Source: Flavobacteriia bacterium
GTDB lineage: Bacteria; Bacteroidota; Bacteroidia; Flavobacteriales_D; Crocinitomicaceae
Length of the DNA: 64,000 nt
NCBI GenBank assembly: GCA_947490145.1
Contig: CANLGD010000007.1
Span: forward strand, 1 to 64,000
Reading direction: 5' to 3'
The translations under genes were made by a program, and so were the position numbers. Every line of letters starts with the position of its first letter. Position 1 is the first letter of the stretch. The notes below the pieces were generated by a model that did no database searches, had not been told where the DNA came from, and worked only from the letters and a program-made list of their open reading frames with translations. Positions 9,367 through 20,410 of this stretch are shown here, piece by piece.

Positions 9367-9639
9367 TTAAGCTTCTAATTGATCACTAGCTGTTTGAGCG
9401 ATTGCTGATTTAGCAAAACGGATTTTACTTCCTTCGCAATTCAACAACACTGTAGCATCAGAAACTTCTAAAATTTTACCATGGATTCCTCCAATTGTAA
9501 CTACTTTATCTCCTGGAGCTAAATTCGCTCTGAAATTTTTCTGCTCTTTTTGTTTTTTCTGTTGTGGTCTGATCATGAAAAAGTAGAAAACTACTACAAT
9601 CATCAACAACATTACTATTTGACCTGCGCCGTCTTTCAT
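9367..9639 (-). CDS. yajC: Preprotein translocase subunit YajC
   Basis: 90 residues. One N-terminal membrane segment (about residues 6-22, IVMLLMIVVVFYFFMIRPQ), immediately followed by the hallmark RPQQKKQKEQ and the soluble KOW-like domain with LAPGDKVVTIGGIHGKI. YajC associates with SecDF and the Sec translocon in the inner membrane and supports protein export. Last gene of a minus-strand operon, 41 bp after the DUF1573 gene. The order nusB-DUF1573-yajC is a recurring Bacteroidota arrangement. Confidence 0.96.
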   Translation of the reverse strand: MKDGAGQIVMLLMIVVVFYFFMIRPQQKKQKEQKNFRANLAPGDKVVTIGGIHGKILEVSDATVLLNCEGSKIRFAKSAIAQTASDQLEA

Positions 9640-9680
9640 TTTATTTGATTTAAATTATTGTTTTATTTTTGGTTATATAT

Positions 9681-10076
9681 TTATTTTCTGACTACGTTCG
9701 CTTTGATTAGAACTGGAGTAATCGAAGGATCTGTGTTTGCAACAATTCTCACTTCTTTACTCAAAGTTCCTGGTGATGCTCTATCTGTTTTTATATTTGC
9801 TTTGATTGTGGCGCTTTCACCGGGAGTAATAGGATCTTTTGGATACTCAGCTACTGTGCAAGTACAAGAACCTTTCACTTCCGCTAAAATCAAAGGATAA
9901 TCTCCAGTATTTTTCACAGTAAATGATGCGTGAACGATTTCACCTAACATCACTTTTCCTGCATCCACAACAGATTGAACTTCCATTTCTGTTTTATTTC
10001 CAACTTCAACATTTTCACTATCGCTGCAAGCAAACAATAGGAATGACATACAAATACTTGCTAAAATATTATTCAT
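9681..10076 (-). CDS. DUF1573 domain lipoprotein
   Basis: 131 residues. The signal peptide ends in a lipobox (LLFAC, Cys17). The rest is a single Ig-like DUF1573 domain: GEIVHASFTVKNTGDYPLIL, the conserved GSCTCTVAEYPKDPITPGES (two cysteines, then the Pro-Gly turn) and a C-terminal strand with VRIVANTDPSITPVLIKANV. DUF1573 proteins are envelope proteins of unknown function. It lies between nusB (11 bp) and yajC (41 bp), so it is co-transcribed with them; position next to yajC suggests, but does not show, an envelope or export role. Confidence 0.9.
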   Translation of the reverse strand: MNNILASICMSFLLFACSDSENVEVGNKTEMEVQSVVDAGKVMLGEIVHASFTVKNTGDYPLILAEVKGSCTCTVAEYPKDPITPGESATIKANIKTDRASPGTLSKEVRIVANTDPSITPVLIKANVVRK

Positions 10077-10087
10077 AATCCTTGGTA

Positions 10088-11035
10088 TTATTCCATTAAA
10101 CCTCTTCCAATTTTGGAAATTTTATTTTCTTTTTCTAATCTATCAACCGCTTTATCTAAAATTCCATTGATAAATCCGTTACTTTTTGGAGTGCTATAAT
10201 ATTTCGAAATTTCGATATATTCGTTCAAAGTCACTTTTACGGGAATATTATTGAATTCTTGCAATTCGGTAATGGCCATTTTCATTAAAATGATATCCAT
10301 TTTTGCAATCCTATCTACATCCCAATTTTTTGTTAAATCTTCAATTAATGCCAAATTTTCTTGGTCTTTGTCGATTGTTTTTCTCAACAAAATTCTGACA
10401 AACTCTTTTTCGTCTTCTGGATCTTTAAACAATGCTAAAATCTCATTGTTCCCTTCCATTGAAAAAGTTTTCATTGTCTTCAAAACCATTGAACAAGCTA
10501 AATCAATATCATCTAACCATTGAATACTTTTCTCTTCAAAGAAATTATAAATCAATGGTGAATTGGCAATTTCTGCTTTGAAAAGCGCACACGCAAATTC
10601 CATATCACTTTCGAAATTACTTTCTTCTTGGCTCATATATGCAAAGTAAGTTTCGCTTTCACGAATTTGAGCCATCACTTTTCTGAACATTTCTTGGTGT
10701 TCATCGCCTAACCAATTTACCTTATTTTCTTCAGAAGCTCTTCTTAATGGACCATTTGTATCAATCAAATCGAAAACTTTATTTTCTATGAACTTTAAAT
10801 TTGGATTCAAATCAGTTGAAGTTGGTCGGATTTTAGATTTCAACTCCTCTAATCTTCTCAACTCCATCTCCTTCAGTTCTCCGAATGATAAAAATAAGAA
10901 TAAATACAAATCAAAAATTCGATCTATATTGTCCATCATTTCATTCTCAGTACGTCTATAATTTTCTTCATCGGACTGAAAATAAGCATATAGCGCTTGC
11001 AATACTTTGATTCTTAAATGTCTTCTATTTAGCAT
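10088..11035 (-). CDS. nusB: Transcription antitermination factor NusB, long Bacteroidota form
   Basis: 315 residues, roughly twice the size of E. coli NusB. It begins MLNRRHLRIKVLQALYAYFQ, the arginine-rich helix that contacts boxA RNA in NusB. The helical NusB fold is completed by the C-terminal half (DIDLACSMVLKTMKTF, LRKTIDKDQENLALIEDLTKNWDVDRIAKMDIILMKMAITEL, then VKVTLNEYIEISKYYSTPKSNGFINGILD). The middle stretch, about residues 45-170, is an insertion typical of the long Bacteroidota proteins. Role: with NusE and boxA, antitermination of rRNA operons. Nine bp after leucine dehydrogenase and 11 bp before DUF1573, in one operon. Confidence 0.93.
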   Translation of the reverse strand: MLNRRHLRIKVLQALYAYFQSDEENYRRTENEMMDNIDRIFDLYLFLFLSFGELKEMELRRLEELKSKIRPTSTDLNPNLKFIENKVFDLIDTNGPLRRASEENKVNWLGDEHQEMFRKVMAQIRESETYFAYMSQEESNFESDMEFACALFKAEIANSPLIYNFFEEKSIQWLDDIDLACSMVLKTMKTFSMEGNNEILALFKDPEDEKEFVRILLRKTIDKDQENLALIEDLTKNWDVDRIAKMDIILMKMAITELQEFNNIPVKVTLNEYIEISKYYSTPKSNGFINGILDKAVDRLEKENKISKIGRGLME

Positions 11036-11044
11036 ATCAGTTTT

Positions 11045-12142
11045 TTACATCGGTAATTTAACATTTCCGATTGCGGCAATCCTCTCTTCTGCCAATTTAT
11101 TTGCGATTTGGTACGTTGGGATATTTTCCGACTTAGAACGACGAACAATATTTTGAATTGTAGTATATATTTCTTCTGCTTTACCCATTGCCCATTCAGC
11201 AGATAAAGATTTAACTTCAGAATAACAGTTGATTACACCGCCAGAATTCAAAGCATAATCTGGTGCATAAATGATTCCTTTGTCCATTACGGCTTGTCCG
11301 TGTAAATTTTCGATTGCCAACTGATTGTTTGCAGCGCCAGCAATAATTGAGCATTTCAATCTAGACAACGTCTCATCATTTACAGTAGCACCCAGTGCGC
11401 AAGGAGCGTAGATATCCATTTCTAAATCGTAGATATCATCCAATCCAACAATTTTTGCACCATATTTCTGTGCTACTCTATTTAAAGTTTCTTGGTGAAT
11501 ATCAGTAATGTAAATTTCAGCGCCTTCTTTGGCAAGCGATGCAACCAAATATTCACCTACGTGACCAACACCTTGCACAGCGATTTTCTTTCCGGCCAAT
11601 GAATCTGAGCCAAATTGTTCTTTCGCACAAGCTTTCATTCCAACATAAACACCGTGCGCTGTAACAGGAGAAGGATCTCCACTTTTGCCTGCTAAACCAA
11701 CAACGTGATCGGTTTCCATGTTCACCCAAGACATATCTGAAGTTCCAATACCAACGTCTTCAGCCGTAATATATTTACCACCCAAACTGTTGACAAATTT
11801 ACCAAAACGTCTCATGAAAGCTTCGGTTTTCATGGTACGAGAATCGCCGATTATTACCGCTTTTCCACCGCCTAAATTCAATCCTGCAAGAGAATTTTTG
11901 TAAGTCATTCCGCGAGATAAGCGTAAAACATCATTTAACGCTTCTAACTCATTATTGTAAGCCCACATTCTTGTACCTCCAAGAGCTGGACCTAATACGG
12001 TGTTATGAACTGCAATGATTGCTTTTAAACCTGTGGCATTGTCATTACAGAACAACAATTGCTCGTGGTTGTATTTACTCATTTGAGCAATAACTGGATT
12101 TTCAGCCAGATTTGTGTCTTTGATGTCTTTAACCTCAAACAT
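11045..12142 (-). CDS. Leucine dehydrogenase (Glu/Leu/Phe/Val dehydrogenase family)
   Basis: 365 residues, the length of leucine/valine dehydrogenases rather than the longer glutamate enzymes. LGPALGGTRMW and the catalytic lysine in LGGGKAVIIGD sit in the substrate domain; ITAEDVGIGTSDM follows; the NAD domain has the Rossmann loop VQGVGHVGEYLV (about residue 180). It interconverts branched-chain L-amino acids and their 2-oxo acids using NAD+. The product feeds the fused branched-chain E1 enzyme encoded at 15558-18002, so the two probably act in one pathway. First gene of the operon with nusB, DUF1573 and yajC; its promoter overlaps that of the divergent ABC exporter. Confidence 0.93.
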   Translation of the reverse strand: MFEVKDIKDTNLAENPVIAQMSKYNHEQLLFCNDNATGLKAIIAVHNTVLGPALGGTRMWAYNNELEALNDVLRLSRGMTYKNSLAGLNLGGGKAVIIGDSRTMKTEAFMRRFGKFVNSLGGKYITAEDVGIGTSDMSWVNMETDHVVGLAGKSGDPSPVTAHGVYVGMKACAKEQFGSDSLAGKKIAVQGVGHVGEYLVASLAKEGAEIYITDIHQETLNRVAQKYGAKIVGLDDIYDLEMDIYAPCALGATVNDETLSRLKCSIIAGAANNQLAIENLHGQAVMDKGIIYAPDYALNSGGVINCYSEVKSLSAEWAMGKAEEIYTTIQNIVRRSKSENIPTYQIANKLAEERIAAIGNVKLPM

Positions 12143-15557: not shown

Positions 15558-18002
15558 ATGGCAAAAGAATCGACTGAAGTTGAAGTTACCCCTGTAGATT
15601 TTGAAACATTCAAAAATGAAGTACTTGCAGACTACAAATTAGCTTGTTTATCGCGAGAAGCCTCTTTGTTAGGAAGACGTGAAGTTTTATCAGGAAAGGC
15701 CAAATTTGGAATTTTTGGTGACGGAAAAGAATTAGCTCAAATCGCCTTAGCAAAACAATTCAGAAATGGAGACTTCCGTTCTGGTTACTATAGAGATCAA
15801 ACGTTGATGATGGCCATTGGTCAACTCAACATTCAACAATATTTTGCAGGATTGTATGGTGAAACAAACCTTGAATTAGAGCCACAATCAGCAGGTAGAC
15901 AAATGGGTGGGCATTATTCATCTAGAAATTTGGACGAAAATGGCAATTGGCTAAATTTGATGGAACAAAAAAACAGTTCTGCTGATATTTCCCCAACTGC
16001 TGGCCAAATGCCTCGTTTGCTAGGATTAGCTCAAGCATCAAAAGTGTACAGAAATCATCCTGAATTGAAGGATTTAGCTGATTTTCAAAAATTCACCAAT
16101 GGTGGAAATGAAGTCGCTTTTGGAACGATTGGCGATGCGAGCACTTCTGAAGGACCATTTTGGGAAACAATCAATGCTGCAGGCGTTTTGCAAGTTCCGA
16201 TGGTCATGTCCGTTTGGGATGATGGATTTGGAATTTCAGTTTCAAGAGACAAACAAACGACCAAAGGAAGTATTTCAGAAGCCTTGGCAGGAATGCAAAG
16301 AACAGCGGACAAACCTGGTTATGAAATTTTCACAACAAAAGGTTGGGATTATGCACATTTGGTAGAAACTTATGAAAAAGCTGTAGCCATTGCCCGTGAA
16401 GAGCATGTTCCAGTTTTAGTTCACGTTCAAGAAGTGAATCAACCGCAAGGACATTCGACTTCTGGTTCTCACGAGCGTTACAAGTCTGAAGAAAGATTGA
16501 AATGGGAAACTGAATTCGATTGTATTACTAAATTCAAAGAATGGATTTTAAGTTTCAATGCTGAAGGAAACGCAATCGCCACTGCAGAAGAACTTGAAAA
16601 TATTGAGAAAGATTCGAAAAAAGAAGTCCGCGATTTTAAATCAATTGCCTGGAAAGATTTCACCAATGGATTGAAAAATGACTTAAATGAGGTAATTCAA
16701 TTGTTTCAAGGGATTGAACTAGAAACTTCACACAAGACATTTATTCAAGCTGAAATTCTTGCATTGCAAAAAGCGATGGATCCTATTCGCAAGGATATTT
16801 TGTCAGCAGCAAGAAAAGTTTTACGAACTATCAAATCGGAAAATATTTCATCAAAATCTATGCTTTCCGCTTGGATTCAATTACAAATAGAACACAATAA
16901 ATCAAGATATAGTTCACACTTATATTCTGAATCTGCTTTCAATGCGGTAAAGATCGAAGGAATTGACCCACAATATGCAGACGAAGTAAAAATGGAAGAT
17001 GGAAGAATTATCTTGCGTGATAACTTCAGAGAAATCTTCAAAAAGTATCCCCAAACGCTCGTTTTCGGCGAGGATGCTGGTAAAATCGGCGGTGTAAACC
17101 AAAGTTTGGAAGGCATGCAAGAGGAATTTGGCGAATTGCGTGTTTCTGATGTTGGAATTAGAGAATGTACGATTATTGGTCAAGGAATTGGAATGGCGAT
17201 GAGAGGTTTGAGACCAATCGCTGAAATTCAATATTTAGACTATTTATTGTACGCGATTCAAATTATGTCTGACGATTTGTCAACTGTTCAATACAGAACC
17301 AAAGGCGGACAAAAAGCACCTTTGATTGTGAGTACCCGCGGACACCGTTTGGAAGGAATTTGGCACAGTGGTAGTCCAATGGGAATGATTATCAATTCAT
17401 TGCGAGGCATGTATGTTTGTGTACCAAGAAACATGACAAAAGCTGCAGGATTTTACAATACATTATTGATTGGTGACGAGCCAGCATTGGTGATTGAGCC
17501 TTTGAATGGTTATAGAACCAAAGAAAGAAACCCAACAAATATAGGTGAATTTAGAACGCCCTTGGGAATTCCTGAAATTGTGCAAGAAGGAACAGATATC
17601 ACTTTGGTTTCTTATGGTTCAACTTTCAACTTATGTGAACAAGCTTGTAAATTATTGGCTGAACACGATATTTCAGTAGAATTGATTGATGCACAAACAT
17701 TAATTCCTTTTGATATCAACCATTTAATTGGCAAATCTTTGCAAAAAACAAATCGTTTGTTGATTGTGGACGAAGATGTTAGTTCAGGAGCTACTGGTTA
17801 CATGTTGGATAAAATTTTAGTTGAACAAAAAACATACTTTACTTTAGATTCTGCACCGGAAACATTGAGTGCAAAAGATCACAGACCGCCTTATGGCTCA
17901 GATGGTGATTATTTTTCGAAACCAAGTATTGACGATATTTTTGAAAAAGTTTATGGAATGATGAGCGAGGTTTCTCCCTCAAAATATCCAGCTTTATATT
18001 GA
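15558..18002 (+). CDS. Fused branched-chain 2-oxoacid dehydrogenase E1 (alpha and beta in one chain)
   Basis: 814 residues. Alpha part about 1-400: QMGGHYSSRNLDENGNW, then the thiamine-diphosphate motif GDASTSEG..., closing with WDDGFGIS where many relatives have NN. Beta part about 475-814: GEDAGKIGGVNQ, GIRECTIIGQGIGMAMRGLRPIAEIQYLDY, then LEGIWHSGSP, EPALVIEPLNGY, and LIDAQTLIPFD with LLIVDEDVSSGATG. The E1 complex decarboxylates branched-chain 2-oxo acids and passes the acyl group to lipoyl-E2. The fusion is common in Bacteroidota. E2 and E3 are not in this window. The substrate is inferred from the family and from leucine dehydrogenase nearby; a pyruvate-type E1 is less likely. It has a promoter upstream and a hairpin downstream. 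Confidence 0.92.
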   Translation: MAKESTEVEVTPVDFETFKNEVLADYKLACLSREASLLGRREVLSGKAKFGIFGDGKELAQIALAKQFRNGDFRSGYYRDQTLMMAIGQLNIQQYFAGLYGETNLELEPQSAGRQMGGHYSSRNLDENGNWLNLMEQKNSSADISPTAGQMPRLLGLAQASKVYRNHPELKDLADFQKFTNGGNEVAFGTIGDASTSEGPFWETINAAGVLQVPMVMSVWDDGFGISVSRDKQTTKGSISEALAGMQRTADKPGYEIFTTKGWDYAHLVETYEKAVAIAREEHVPVLVHVQEVNQPQGHSTSGSHERYKSEERLKWETEFDCITKFKEWILSFNAEGNAIATAEELENIEKDSKKEVRDFKSIAWKDFTNGLKNDLNEVIQLFQGIELETSHKTFIQAEILALQKAMDPIRKDILSAARKVLRTIKSENISSKSMLSAWIQLQIEHNKSRYSSHLYSESAFNAVKIEGIDPQYADEVKMEDGRIILRDNFREIFKKYPQTLVFGEDAGKIGGVNQSLEGMQEEFGELRVSDVGIRECTIIGQGIGMAMRGLRPIAEIQYLDYLLYAIQIMSDDLSTVQYRTKGGQKAPLIVSTRGHRLEGIWHSGSPMGMIINSLRGMYVCVPRNMTKAAGFYNTLLIGDEPALVIEPLNGYRTKERNPTNIGEFRTPLGIPEIVQEGTDITLVSYGSTFNLCEQACKLLAEHDISVELIDAQTLIPFDINHLIGKSLQKTNRLLIVDEDVSSGATGYMLDKILVEQKTYFTLDSAPETLSAKDHRPPYGSDGDYFSKPSIDDIFEKVYGMMSEVSPSKYPALY

Positions 18003-18008
18003 TATTTA

Positions 18009-18036
18009 AAGTCCGAAGATGAATTTTTTCGGACTT
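18009..18036 (+). terminator. Hairpin at the end of the E1 gene
   Basis: Perfect 9-bp inverted repeat AAGTCCGAA / TTCGGACTT, 6 bp after the E1 stop codon, followed by AATTTTAG. The T-run is poor, so termination may be partial and allow read-through into the next genes. An ATG at 18019 lies inside the loop, which argues against it as a start codon. Confidence 0.6.
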
Positions 18037-18051
18037 AATTTTAGAAGTTTA

Positions 18052-18441
18052 ATGAGAACATTGATTGTCATTTTTTGTATTTCCAGTTTCTTAGCGAAAG
18101 ACATTGCTCGCTTGGGTTGGGAAATATGGTTTAAAGTAAATCAGGAACAGATAATCGCCGAAAAATGTGAAAATAAAGCTACACCTATGCTTCTCTGTAA
18201 TGGGAAATGCTACCTTTCAAAGCAACTGCAAAAACTGGAACAAAAAGAGCAAAATCACAATTCGAAAACCAATCCTTTCAACAACAATCTAAAATTTGAG
18301 TACATCCCTACTCCACTTGAAATAAATATGCTTTTTGTTGAAATTGAATCAAACAAAAAGGATTTTTTTAAAAATAAAATTCAAGCTATTAAAGAATTTT
18401 CAGGTTACATTTTCCATCCGCCATCGCAAATAATAATTTGA
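18052..18441 (+). CDS. Small exported protein with CNGKCYL motif, unknown function
   Basis: 129 residues from ATG 18052. An in-frame ATG at 18019 would add 11 residues encoded by the upstream terminator stem, so it is rejected. One N-terminal hydrophobic segment (LIVIFCISSFLAKDIARLGW) acts as signal or membrane anchor. The hallmark is AEKCENKATPMLLCNGKCYL with three cysteines, followed by KQLQKLEQKEQNH, a hydrophilic stretch and an aromatic C-terminus (FSGYIFHPPSQI). Small proteins of this look occur in Bacteroidota beside outer-membrane metal-uptake genes; I recall the pattern but cannot name a family. It heads a three-gene group with the CDVCGC protein (56 bp on) and a lipoprotein, and I infer a shared, possibly metal-related, envelope role. 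Confidence 0.7.
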   Translation: MRTLIVIFCISSFLAKDIARLGWEIWFKVNQEQIIAEKCENKATPMLLCNGKCYLSKQLQKLEQKEQNHNSKTNPFNNNLKFEYIPTPLEINMLFVEIESNKKDFFKNKIQAIKEFSGYIFHPPSQIII

Positions 18442-18497
18442 TTATTAAATAAATTGTTCAATTGACAATTTAAGTTTTCAATTTTATTATTTAAATC

Positions 18498-19412
18498 ATG
18501 CACAAAATCATCTTGTTTTTCGGTTTGATTATATTGGCAAATCAATCAATGGCGTGCGATGTTTGTGGCTGTGCTGCAAGTTCATTTTCCTTGGGATTAT
18601 TGCCAAGTTCAAACCATCATTTTATCGGCATTAGATCCAATATTCGATCTTTTCAAACAACTCATCCGCCACTTTTTGGTTTTCAGGAACCATCAACGGA
18701 TGAAGTATTTACATCAAGTGACTTGATCGGAAGGTGGAAAATCAATCATCGTTTTCAATTAATGGCGGTAATTCCTTATGTTTATAATTCGCAGAAAACG
18801 ACAGAAACAACCATCAACAATCAAGGTTTAGGAGATATCACCTTGATGGGTAATTATGTTTTTATTCAAAACACTGATTCGCTTGCAAGAAAATTCAAAC
18901 AAGCGGGAACATTTGGAATTGGCGCAAAACTTCCTACTGGCAAATTTGACAATACAAATGTCAACAATCGAAATATGCTTCCAGGCACAGGGACAGTTGA
19001 TTTCATTGCATCTTTGAATTATTCGATTCAAAAAGGAAGTTGGGGATATTTGACAGAATCTAGTTTTACTTACAAGACTGAAAACAAATATGATTACCAG
19101 TTTGGGCATGCATTAGTAACCACAAATTTGGTATTTTATCGCTGGGTTTTGAACGAAAATCTGAGAATTCTTCCGCAAGTGGGATTCAACTATAACCAAA
19201 ATTTTCGAGATCGAATCAAAGGAAAAATTACCAATGATTCTTACAACGGAGGAACAATTTTAAACGCACAATTTACTTTGGCTACTATTTACAAAAATTG
19301 GATGTTTTCAGCCAATTACTTTGCACCAATTTATCAAGATTTAGGAAATGGATATGTTGATCAACAAACAGCATTCCGTTTTGGTATTAATTATTTTATT
19401 ACAAAAAAATGA
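18498..19412 (+). CDS. Exported beta-barrel-like protein with N-terminal CDVCGCA motif
   Basis: 304 residues. The signal peptide (IILFFGLIILANQSMA) is cleaved just before CDVCGCAASSFSLGLLP, leaving three cysteines at the mature N-terminus; Cys20 could alternatively be lipidated (SMAC is a poor lipobox). The rest has alternating strands with aromatic ends (HHFIGIRSNIRSF, FQLMAVIPYVYNSQKT, GLGDITLMGNYVFIQ, GTFGIGAKLPTGKFDN, WMFSANYFAPIYQDL, FRFGINYFITKK), which suggests an outer-membrane beta barrel of the kind annotated as transporter or phenol-pathway MetA-like protein. The C-terminal F..GINYFIT fits a barrel end. It overlaps the next gene by 4 nt (ATGA), so the two are translationally coupled. 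The Cys cluster suggests metal binding, which is inference. Confidence 0.78.
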   Translation: MHKIILFFGLIILANQSMACDVCGCAASSFSLGLLPSSNHHFIGIRSNIRSFQTTHPPLFGFQEPSTDEVFTSSDLIGRWKINHRFQLMAVIPYVYNSQKTTETTINNQGLGDITLMGNYVFIQNTDSLARKFKQAGTFGIGAKLPTGKFDNTNVNNRNMLPGTGTVDFIASLNYSIQKGSWGYLTESSFTYKTENKYDYQFGHALVTTNLVFYRWVLNENLRILPQVGFNYNQNFRDRIKGKITNDSYNGGTILNAQFTLATIYKNWMFSANYFAPIYQDLGNGYVDQQTAFRFGINYFITKK

Positions 19413-19810
19413 AAAAAACACTTATTATATTTTTAGGAATCATCTCATTGACAGTATTTTCATGTAAAAAAGAAACATCTGAACCAACGGTGATTTCGGA
19501 TCCAACATTCAATTTAACTTCACCTGTCTTGAACGAAATCTACAATTTCGGAGATACAATCAAAGTAATTGGAAGTATATCAGCTGACTACGACTTGCAT
19601 GGTTACAATGTGATTATTAAAAACTTGAAAACTGGGATGAATGTCTTAAATCAAGGATATCACTTGCATCAATCTTCTTATACAATTGACGAAGCTTGGA
19701 AAAATACTGTGGTTGATACTTCTGAAATGAAAATAACTGTAGATGTAGCAATTGATCATGATGGAACTTTGAAAAGTTTTGAAAGAATTGTAACTTGTTA
19801 TCCTCAATAA
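19409..19810 (+). CDS. Lipoprotein, possibly DUF4625-like
   Basis: 133 residues. The lipoprotein signal ends TVFSC with lipid Cys19. The mature part is one small Ig-like domain: DPTFNLTSPVLNEIYNFGDT, IKVIGSISADYDLHGYNVII, MNVLNQGYHLHQSSYTI, ITVDVAIDHDGTLKSFERIV. The strand pattern and the G-D-x-I/IKVxG feature recall DUF4625 lipoproteins, but I cannot confirm this. Four His residues (Leu-His-Gly, Tyr-His-Leu-His, Asp-His-Asp) could bind metal. Its start overlaps the stop of the CDVCGC barrel protein as ATGA. Likely anchored in the outer or inner membrane facing the periplasm. Confidence 0.75.
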   Translation: MKKTLIIFLGIISLTVFSCKKETSEPTVISDPTFNLTSPVLNEIYNFGDTIKVIGSISADYDLHGYNVIIKNLKTGMNVLNQGYHLHQSSYTIDEAWKNTVVDTSEMKITVDVAIDHDGTLKSFERIVTCYPQ

Positions 19811-19852: not shown

Positions 19853-20410
19853 ATGAAATGGACTGAATACAACAATTACTTCGAGGAAATTTTACAAAAC
19901 ACAAATCCAAAAGCACCTTACGATAATCCTGATTTTTTAGATTACACTAAAATGAATCAGACTAGAAGTAAACGCTGGATAAAACATGGTGAAATTTTAG
20001 TTTCAATTCAAGAAACTATGAAACAAATCAAAAATCCACAAAAATGGATATTGATTACTGAACCGTGGTGTGGAGACGCTGCACACAGTGTTCCTTTTAT
20101 CCACTTAATCAGCGAATTGAGTGAATATGTAAATCTAGAAATTCAACTTCGTGATGATGATTCTGAAATTGAAAAATATTTAACAAGGGGCGGAAAATCA
20201 ATTCCGATTTTGGTCATCAGAAATGATAATGGGAAAGATTTAGCAGTTTGGGGTCCACGACCCGCAGATTGTCAAGTAATCTTTAACCAACTAAAAGCTG
20301 ACGGTGCTGAGTTTGGGGAAACGAAAATCGCTTTGCAGAATTGGTATAATCAAGATGCTGGAGTGAGTTTGCAAGAAGAACTAAACGAGAAGATTAAAAT
20401 TACATTATAA
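19853..20410 (+). CDS. Thioredoxin-family protein with a single active-site cysteine
   Basis: 185 residues, no signal peptide, so probably cytoplasmic. The central region has the thioredoxin strand KWILITEPWCGDAAHSVP, in which the usual WCxxC is WCGDA: only the first cysteine remains. The cis-Pro loop is present (GGKSIPILVIRND) followed by WGPRP. The family is the thioredoxin-like group found in Firmicutes and Bacteroidota in which a lone Cys or a bacillithiol-type mechanism has been suggested; the biochemical role is unknown. It is the last gene before a strong plus-strand terminator. Confidence 0.85.
   Translation: MKWTEYNNYFEEILQNTNPKAPYDNPDFLDYTKMNQTRSKRWIKHGEILVSIQETMKQIKNPQKWILITEPWCGDAAHSVPFIHLISELSEYVNLEIQLRDDDSEIEKYLTRGGKSIPILVIRNDNGKDLAVWGPRPADCQVIFNQLKADGAEFGETKIALQNWYNQDAGVSLQEELNEKIKITL

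Follow-up and report, generated by a model that had tools for sequence, protein, structure and literature searches.

Organization of the locus

The 64,000-nucleotide stretch of DNA analysed here, which we refer to as the window, contains three co-directional genes, A, B and C, whose N-termini are on inspection compatible with export of all three products (Table 1). In the window A and B are separated by 56 nt, and C overlaps B through an ATGA at 19409-19412. The three reading frames, the ATGA coupling of C and the CDVCGC start of mature B had been described in the original prediction, and each was found as claimed. Searches against Pfam and NCBIfam matched none of the three window proteins above cut-off. 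Gene A accordingly belongs to no family of either collection at cut-off; a DAN-domain match lies below cut-off and was judged spurious.

Gene A starts at the ATG at 18052. A longer reading frame from 18019 was rejected, its start falling within a terminator-like hairpin and its extension being unconserved in relatives. This hairpin folds as RNA with -14.8 kcal/mol (z -4.4 relative to shuffles) and is likewise present in the relatives L010-L012. The gene on its other side, a fused E1 dehydrogenase (15558-18002), is 80 % identical to another in this genome, at 9612-12077 of locus L013, and each of the two lies 5′ of an A-B-C block. Downstream, 42 nt 3′ of C, the window encodes a Thioredoxin_9 protein (PF14595, E 2.9e-34; 19853-20410). 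A related gene trails the block in several other loci as well and may be either a neighbour or an operon member.

Table 1. Genes and predicted features of the A-B-C locus (window coordinates)
Feature	Position	Strand	Description
Gene A	18052..18441	+	129 aa; small, putatively exported protein with CxGKC; uORF resembling CutF/CruR, putative leader peptide that senses copper
Gene B	18498..19412	+	304 aa; predicted outer-membrane beta-barrel, FapF/Phenol_MetA_deg type, by family-profile match
Gene C	19409..19810	+	133 aa; lipoprotein, weakly DUF4625/bacterial-Ig like
Terminator-like hairpin	18009..18036	+	interval between E1 dehydrogenase gene and gene A; 11-bp stem, 6-nt loop
Putative metal-sensing motif of A, C39-x9-C49-N-G-K-C53	18166..18210	+	C39, C49, G51 and C53 invariant
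Putative arrest motif of A, F121-H-P-P124	18412..18423	+	five residues before stop
Predicted stem, 3′ end of A and A-B gap	18426..18501	+	last codons of A pair with bases preceding the start codon of B
Mature N-terminus of B, CDVCGC	18555..18572	+	from alignment of 41 homologues

The three genes form a conserved operon with a second copy in the same genome

A paralogous block on contig C20 of the same genome has the order E1 - A′ - B′ - C′ - MbnP - MauG, and its identity to the window copy is 80 % for E1, 49 % for A, 50 % for B and 38 % for C. The MbnP protein of this sister block matches PF20243 (E 1.9e-46, 158.8 bits against a gathering score of 27), and its MauG-like protein passes the CCP_MauG model (PF03150, E 4.9e-51). 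MbnP and MbnH are encoded in methanobactin operons and are similar to the copper systems MopE/SACCP and CorA/CorB (PMC3621798). The likeness of A-B-C to these systems lies in the MbnP- and MauG-like genes that are present in many sister operons, including the one in this genome. The differences are that both genes are missing from the window copy and that the homologues score below the NCBIfam equivalog cut-offs, with 36.8 bits against 140 for the sister MbnP (TIGR04052) and 211 bits against 362.85 for the sister MbnH (TIGR04039). Three further MbnP homologues of this genome (contigs C84, C107 and C83; loci L145, L146 and L147) lie outside A-B-C blocks.

Homologues of B were found in 87 of 200 genomes sampled from the family and in 100 of 295 sampled from the class. 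Across 41 wide neighbourhoods the common gene orders are A-B-C, A-B-C-MbnP-MauG, A-B-MbnP-MauG and A-MbnP-MauG-B. Nearly every B operon is headed by A, C is present in about 30 of the 41 loci, and the linkage of E1 to A-B is seen again in about 15 loci of the family. Since B occurs with A and C in this neighbourhood analysis, the possibility that the three genes do not co-occur is excluded. The cysteines are conserved as well: C39, C49 and C53 of A are invariant, as are C20 and C23 of B in 41 of 41 homologues. Because B homologues are frequent, A heads nearly all of their operons, C accompanies most of them and the cysteines are conserved, the A-B-C association is not due to chance, and the three genes are confirmed as real and conserved.

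Genes B and C

Window B on its own has no Pfam match. Its family profile matches FapF structures (E 1.3e-6), and 4 of 41 family members match Phenol_MetA_deg (PF13557). While B resembles these barrels in both respects, it differs from them in bearing a mature N-terminal CDxCG, of which the two cysteines are invariant whereas a third, C25, is not, and in having, in the loci examined, neighbours of the MbnP/MauG type rather than amyloid genes. Window C reaches 16.9 bits against a Pfam gathering score of 27 for DUF4625, a domain matched at E<=0.01 by 9 of 28 C family members. Structure models of B and C have a mean pLDDT of 26 and 35, respectively, each built on an alignment limited to near-identical relatives. 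The histidines of C (HGY, HxH, DHDG) are frequent without being invariant.

Gene A ends in a Pro-Pro motif at a fixed distance from its cysteines

The A protein consists of a hydrophobic N-terminal segment, a C-x9-CxGKC motif, a variable linker and an F-[H/R]-P-P motif placed 1 to 7 residues before the stop; the window protein ends FHPPSQIII-stop. Its conserved columns form two islands, the cysteine motif near the hydrophobic segment and FHPP at the extreme end, with a mean top-residue frequency of 0.63 and 0.64, respectively, compared to 0.23 in the linker.

To avoid circularity, the model used to choose homologues was restricted to the N-terminal part and left out the C-terminus. This selection yielded 63 homologues distinct at 60 % identity, 61 of which have a hydrophobic N-terminus as judged by hydropathy. 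A PP occurs within the last 9 residues of 62 of the 63; the same holds for 3 of 540 control ORFs and for 3.5 % of shuffled sequences. The sole exception has its FHPP farther from the end. P124 was invariant and P123 nearly so in one alignment of A; both reach 100 % in another. A PP end is also found in 23 of 23 further loci from across the phylum. As these loci were retrieved with the full-length A profile, they confirm the result without testing it fully independently. The distance from CxGxC to PP is 67±3 residues. The residue preceding PP varies (H, R, Q, K or S), and 15 of the 16 possible CCN-CCN codon pairs are used, so that selection acts on the peptide and not on the DNA.

It is very unlikely that the prolines near the stop, together with the intergenic RNA pairing described below, reflect composition or shared descent with no regulatory role. 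The small RNA signal and the A+T-rich genome would suit such an explanation, which is nevertheless disfavoured for the peptide motif by the contrast with control ORFs, the near-full synonymous codon freedom and the recurrence across much of the phylum; the RNA structure taken alone is still compatible with it.

Gene A precedes varied outer-membrane genes

At 30 loci from the class search, the gene right after A encodes a B-type barrel in 15 cases, MbnP in 6, a TonB receptor in 5 and a YtkA lipoprotein in 2. At the 23 further loci it encodes a TonB receptor in 9 cases, MbnP in 7, and a B-type barrel and a YtkA lipoprotein in 1 each. None of the TonB receptors downstream of A reaches the cut-off of a copper-specific model. 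Gene A thus heads varied outer-membrane operons, as is expected of a regulator rather than of a fixed partner.

This variety bears on whether A could act as a finished protein, a small periplasmic copper chaperone or sensor subunit working with B and C. Three invariant cysteines, a hydrophobic export-type N-terminus and the steady co-occurrence with B are what such a subunit would display. We consider it unlikely, as the linker is free in sequence yet held in length, the prolines are invariant at the C-terminus while the changeable residue before them offers no conserved metal ligand, and A lies ahead of many unrelated targets, among them TonB receptors at loci that lack a directly downstream B. 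The original prediction of three exported metal-binding parts of one machine therefore stands in that the genes belong together and have a link to metal; A itself is probably a regulatory leader, given a cysteine motif and an F[H/R]PP at fixed distance that also occur 5′ of MbnP and TonB-receptor genes. The metal is most likely copper, as homologous operons hold MbnP-like and MauG/MbnH-like genes.

Comparison with known metal-sensing leader peptides

CutF of Rhodobacter capsulatus is an exported nascent chain that carries a CxxxC and, at its C-terminus, a Pro motif; it pauses for longer in the presence of copper, and this pausing opens a stem-loop over cutO (PMC9973294). The protein is reported to be degraded right after export. 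A large share of CutF-like proteins was found in Bacteroidota (Ozturk et al., PMC9973294), and the A family may be among the clusters of that study, the main text of which makes no mention of MbnP or Phenol_MetA_deg barrels. Of the features by which CutF-like proteins were defined, A has a length under 150 aa (129 aa), a CxxxC (CNGKC, with invariant cysteines), a PP in the last 15 residues and a co-directional neighbour no more than 1000 nt downstream (56 nt away in the window); with respect to the Sec signal peptide, another of these features, it has a hydrophobic N-terminus. Conversely, the spacing from CxxxC to PP is 45 residues in CutF and about 67 in A, the Pro-rich motif of CutF is replaced by F[H/R]PP, A has a third conserved cysteine ten residues upstream, and the target of CutF is a multicopper oxidase, while those of A are outer-membrane barrels, MbnP and TonB receptors.

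The second precedent is CruR (DUF2946) of Bordetella pertussis, which carries CXXC and RAPP and in which copper relieves the pause, whereupon Rho ends transcription; in some cases its operons include MbnPH genes (PMC9426467). CruR resembles A, in its probable role, as an exported leader that combines a cysteine motif with a C-terminal PP motif and heads copper operons, A likewise being the first gene of copper-related operons. They differ in the cysteine motif (CXXC in CruR, CxxxC in A), the terminal motif (RAPP, FHPP), the spacing (45, 67) and the gap to the next gene (162 nt, 56 nt in the window). A was found not to belong to DUF2946: none of 30 A proteins matches PF11162, and instead of CXXC and RAPP some 45 residues apart they have CxGKC and F[H/R]PP at 67±3. 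PF11162 is nearly absent from the class (2 of 99 genomes, one of them on an unusually G+C-rich contig). One DUF2946 match, at L142 1399-1794, is a His-rich exported protein ending RGPPSYFLAV and is possibly another metal-sensing leader; the Bacteroidia genome that encodes it contains an A-type leader too. Another, in the region L143 1538-1861, lies next to a gene of the outer-membrane efflux type; the contig, from a Bacteroidia genome, is G+C-rich, and the match looks like contamination or horizontal transfer.

A 2025 survey of arrest peptides demonstrated that CruR stalls in vitro and found copper-related RAPP/RGPP uORFs to be missing in Bacteroidota (PMC12992588). Like A in its proposed role, RAPP/RGPP peptides (PMC12992588, PMC10987492) are exported products of small uORFs, carry a PP motif at the C-terminus and lie 5′ of the genes under their control; the F[H/R]PP of the A family sets it apart and outside the reach of the motif search of that survey. 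Given CutF and CruR as described precedents for such leaders, the earlier statement that no described function was known proves too pessimistic. While metal-sensing nascent leaders as such are already known, what differs here is that a family spread over the phylum Bacteroidota has a C-terminal motif of its own and a spacing that is longer and kept within narrow limits. Different, too, is the operon that it heads in the window, a CDxCG outer-membrane barrel and a lipoprotein, joined by MbnP and MauG-like genes in sister copies.

In place of copper, a leader of this type could sense export, the redox state or a different thiophilic metal (zinc, silver). Other classes of arrest peptides monitor export, some Bacteroidota uORFs end in Pro (PMC10987492), and cysteines also bind zinc or form disulphides. 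We regard this as doubtful since the targets of A include MbnP/MauG-like genes, found elsewhere in copper systems, and its motif matches the CxxxC of CutF.

Predicted RNA structure at the A-B junction

The last codons of window A fold with the bases preceding the B start at z -1.9, and the fold around A-B in the window alone is unremarkable (z -1.2 to -1.9). Across A-B pairs with gaps of up to 130 nt, the start region of B is more occluded by the natural end of A than by shuffled ends; in a set of 113 control gene pairs, too, the occlusion is lower. The effect persists, at a modest size, when 23 non-redundant loci are considered, with p = 0.04 for native versus shuffled upstream sequence and p = 0.006 for stalled versus full and with only small differences in pairing. 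In the close relatives L011 and L012, the C-terminus of A and the A-B gap have changed by 2-8 %, compared to 10-16 % for most of A and 8 % for B; L010 is too near the window copy to inform this comparison.

Intrinsic terminators in the A-B gap are found at 1 of 33 loci, with 0.7 expected. Attenuation through a classical terminator is thus unsupported, the gap showing no terminator enrichment. Matches to E. coli-type promoters are overall no commoner than in shuffles. At 18462-18490, the A-B gap of the window contains a near-perfect match to TTGACA-17-TATTAT that overlaps an AAATTGT/ACAATTT inverted repeat. As the gaps of 52 A-B pairs range from 24 to 359 nt, one RNA mechanism may not suit all A loci, and members with long gaps may differ.

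A model for copper-responsive control by gene A

We propose that A-B-C is an outer-membrane operon for the handling of copper, with A, the first gene, acting as a regulatory leader, a reading to which we assign a probability of about 0.6. Anatomy, conservation and gene linkage are directly established; from them we infer stalling, the role of copper, the RNA switch and the direction of transport. A nascent chain needs about 65-70 residues to reach from the peptidyl-transferase centre across the membrane. If A is made and exported co-translationally, a ribosome positioned at F-H-P-P near the stop would have C-x9-CxGKC some 69 residues behind it, past the tunnel and the Sec channel, where the motif could sample the periplasm. 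Binding of metal, most likely Cu(I), to the cysteine motif would alter the length of a pause at PP, and this pause would control B and C. The simplest route in the window would be for the paused ribosome to cover the last codons of A that otherwise pair with the bases preceding the B start. The B protein would form a channel in the outer membrane, its periplasmic N-terminus bearing a CDxCG site, and C would be its lipoprotein partner; in sister operons MbnP and a MauG-like di-haem enzyme replace or follow C.

The likeliest role of the operon appears to be copper acquisition, turned down when copper is plentiful. Acquisition is preferred because MbnP and TonB receptors are among the targets of A, and by analogy with MbnP, CruR and TonB-receptor operons. 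It stands ahead of detoxification by no wide margin. Detoxification, in which B and C would export or sequester copper and A would raise their expression at high copper as CutF does for CutO, is possible though less probable. FapF is an exporter, and the cysteine and histidine ligands could sequester metal. CutF raises CutO in the presence of copper (PMC9973294), but homologues of A lie mostly 5′ of uptake-type genes (TonB receptors, MbnP) and not of efflux pumps.

Beyond copper acquisition in this one operon, A may typify a class of arrest peptides that extends throughout the Bacteroidota and senses metal in the periplasm. Its hallmarks would be F[H/R]PP and a fixed 67-residue ruler spanning ribosome tunnel and Sec channel, and the class would act as a general means of switching outer-membrane genes for copper uptake (CDxCG barrels, MbnP and TonB receptors); for this broader claim we consider the odds to be even. 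Literature searches on the A, B and C genes found nothing, and there seem to be few descriptions of how Bacteroidota acquire copper and control its acquisition. If the claim is true, the A-type leader, which about half of the sampled Bacteroidia genomes contain, would make candidate operons for copper uptake recognizable from their sequence and allow a clean test of metal sensing by a nascent chain on the periplasmic side, and arrest-peptide surveys limited to RAPP/RGPP would miss a major lineage version.

The A gene occurs in 80 of 149 genomes of the class and, at a stricter threshold, in 56 of 148 genomes of the phylum. Some neighbourhoods hold two A-type leaders, apparently each with a different target, as at L111 (2317-2706 and 4494-4859) and L097 (5054-5335 and 7965-8291).
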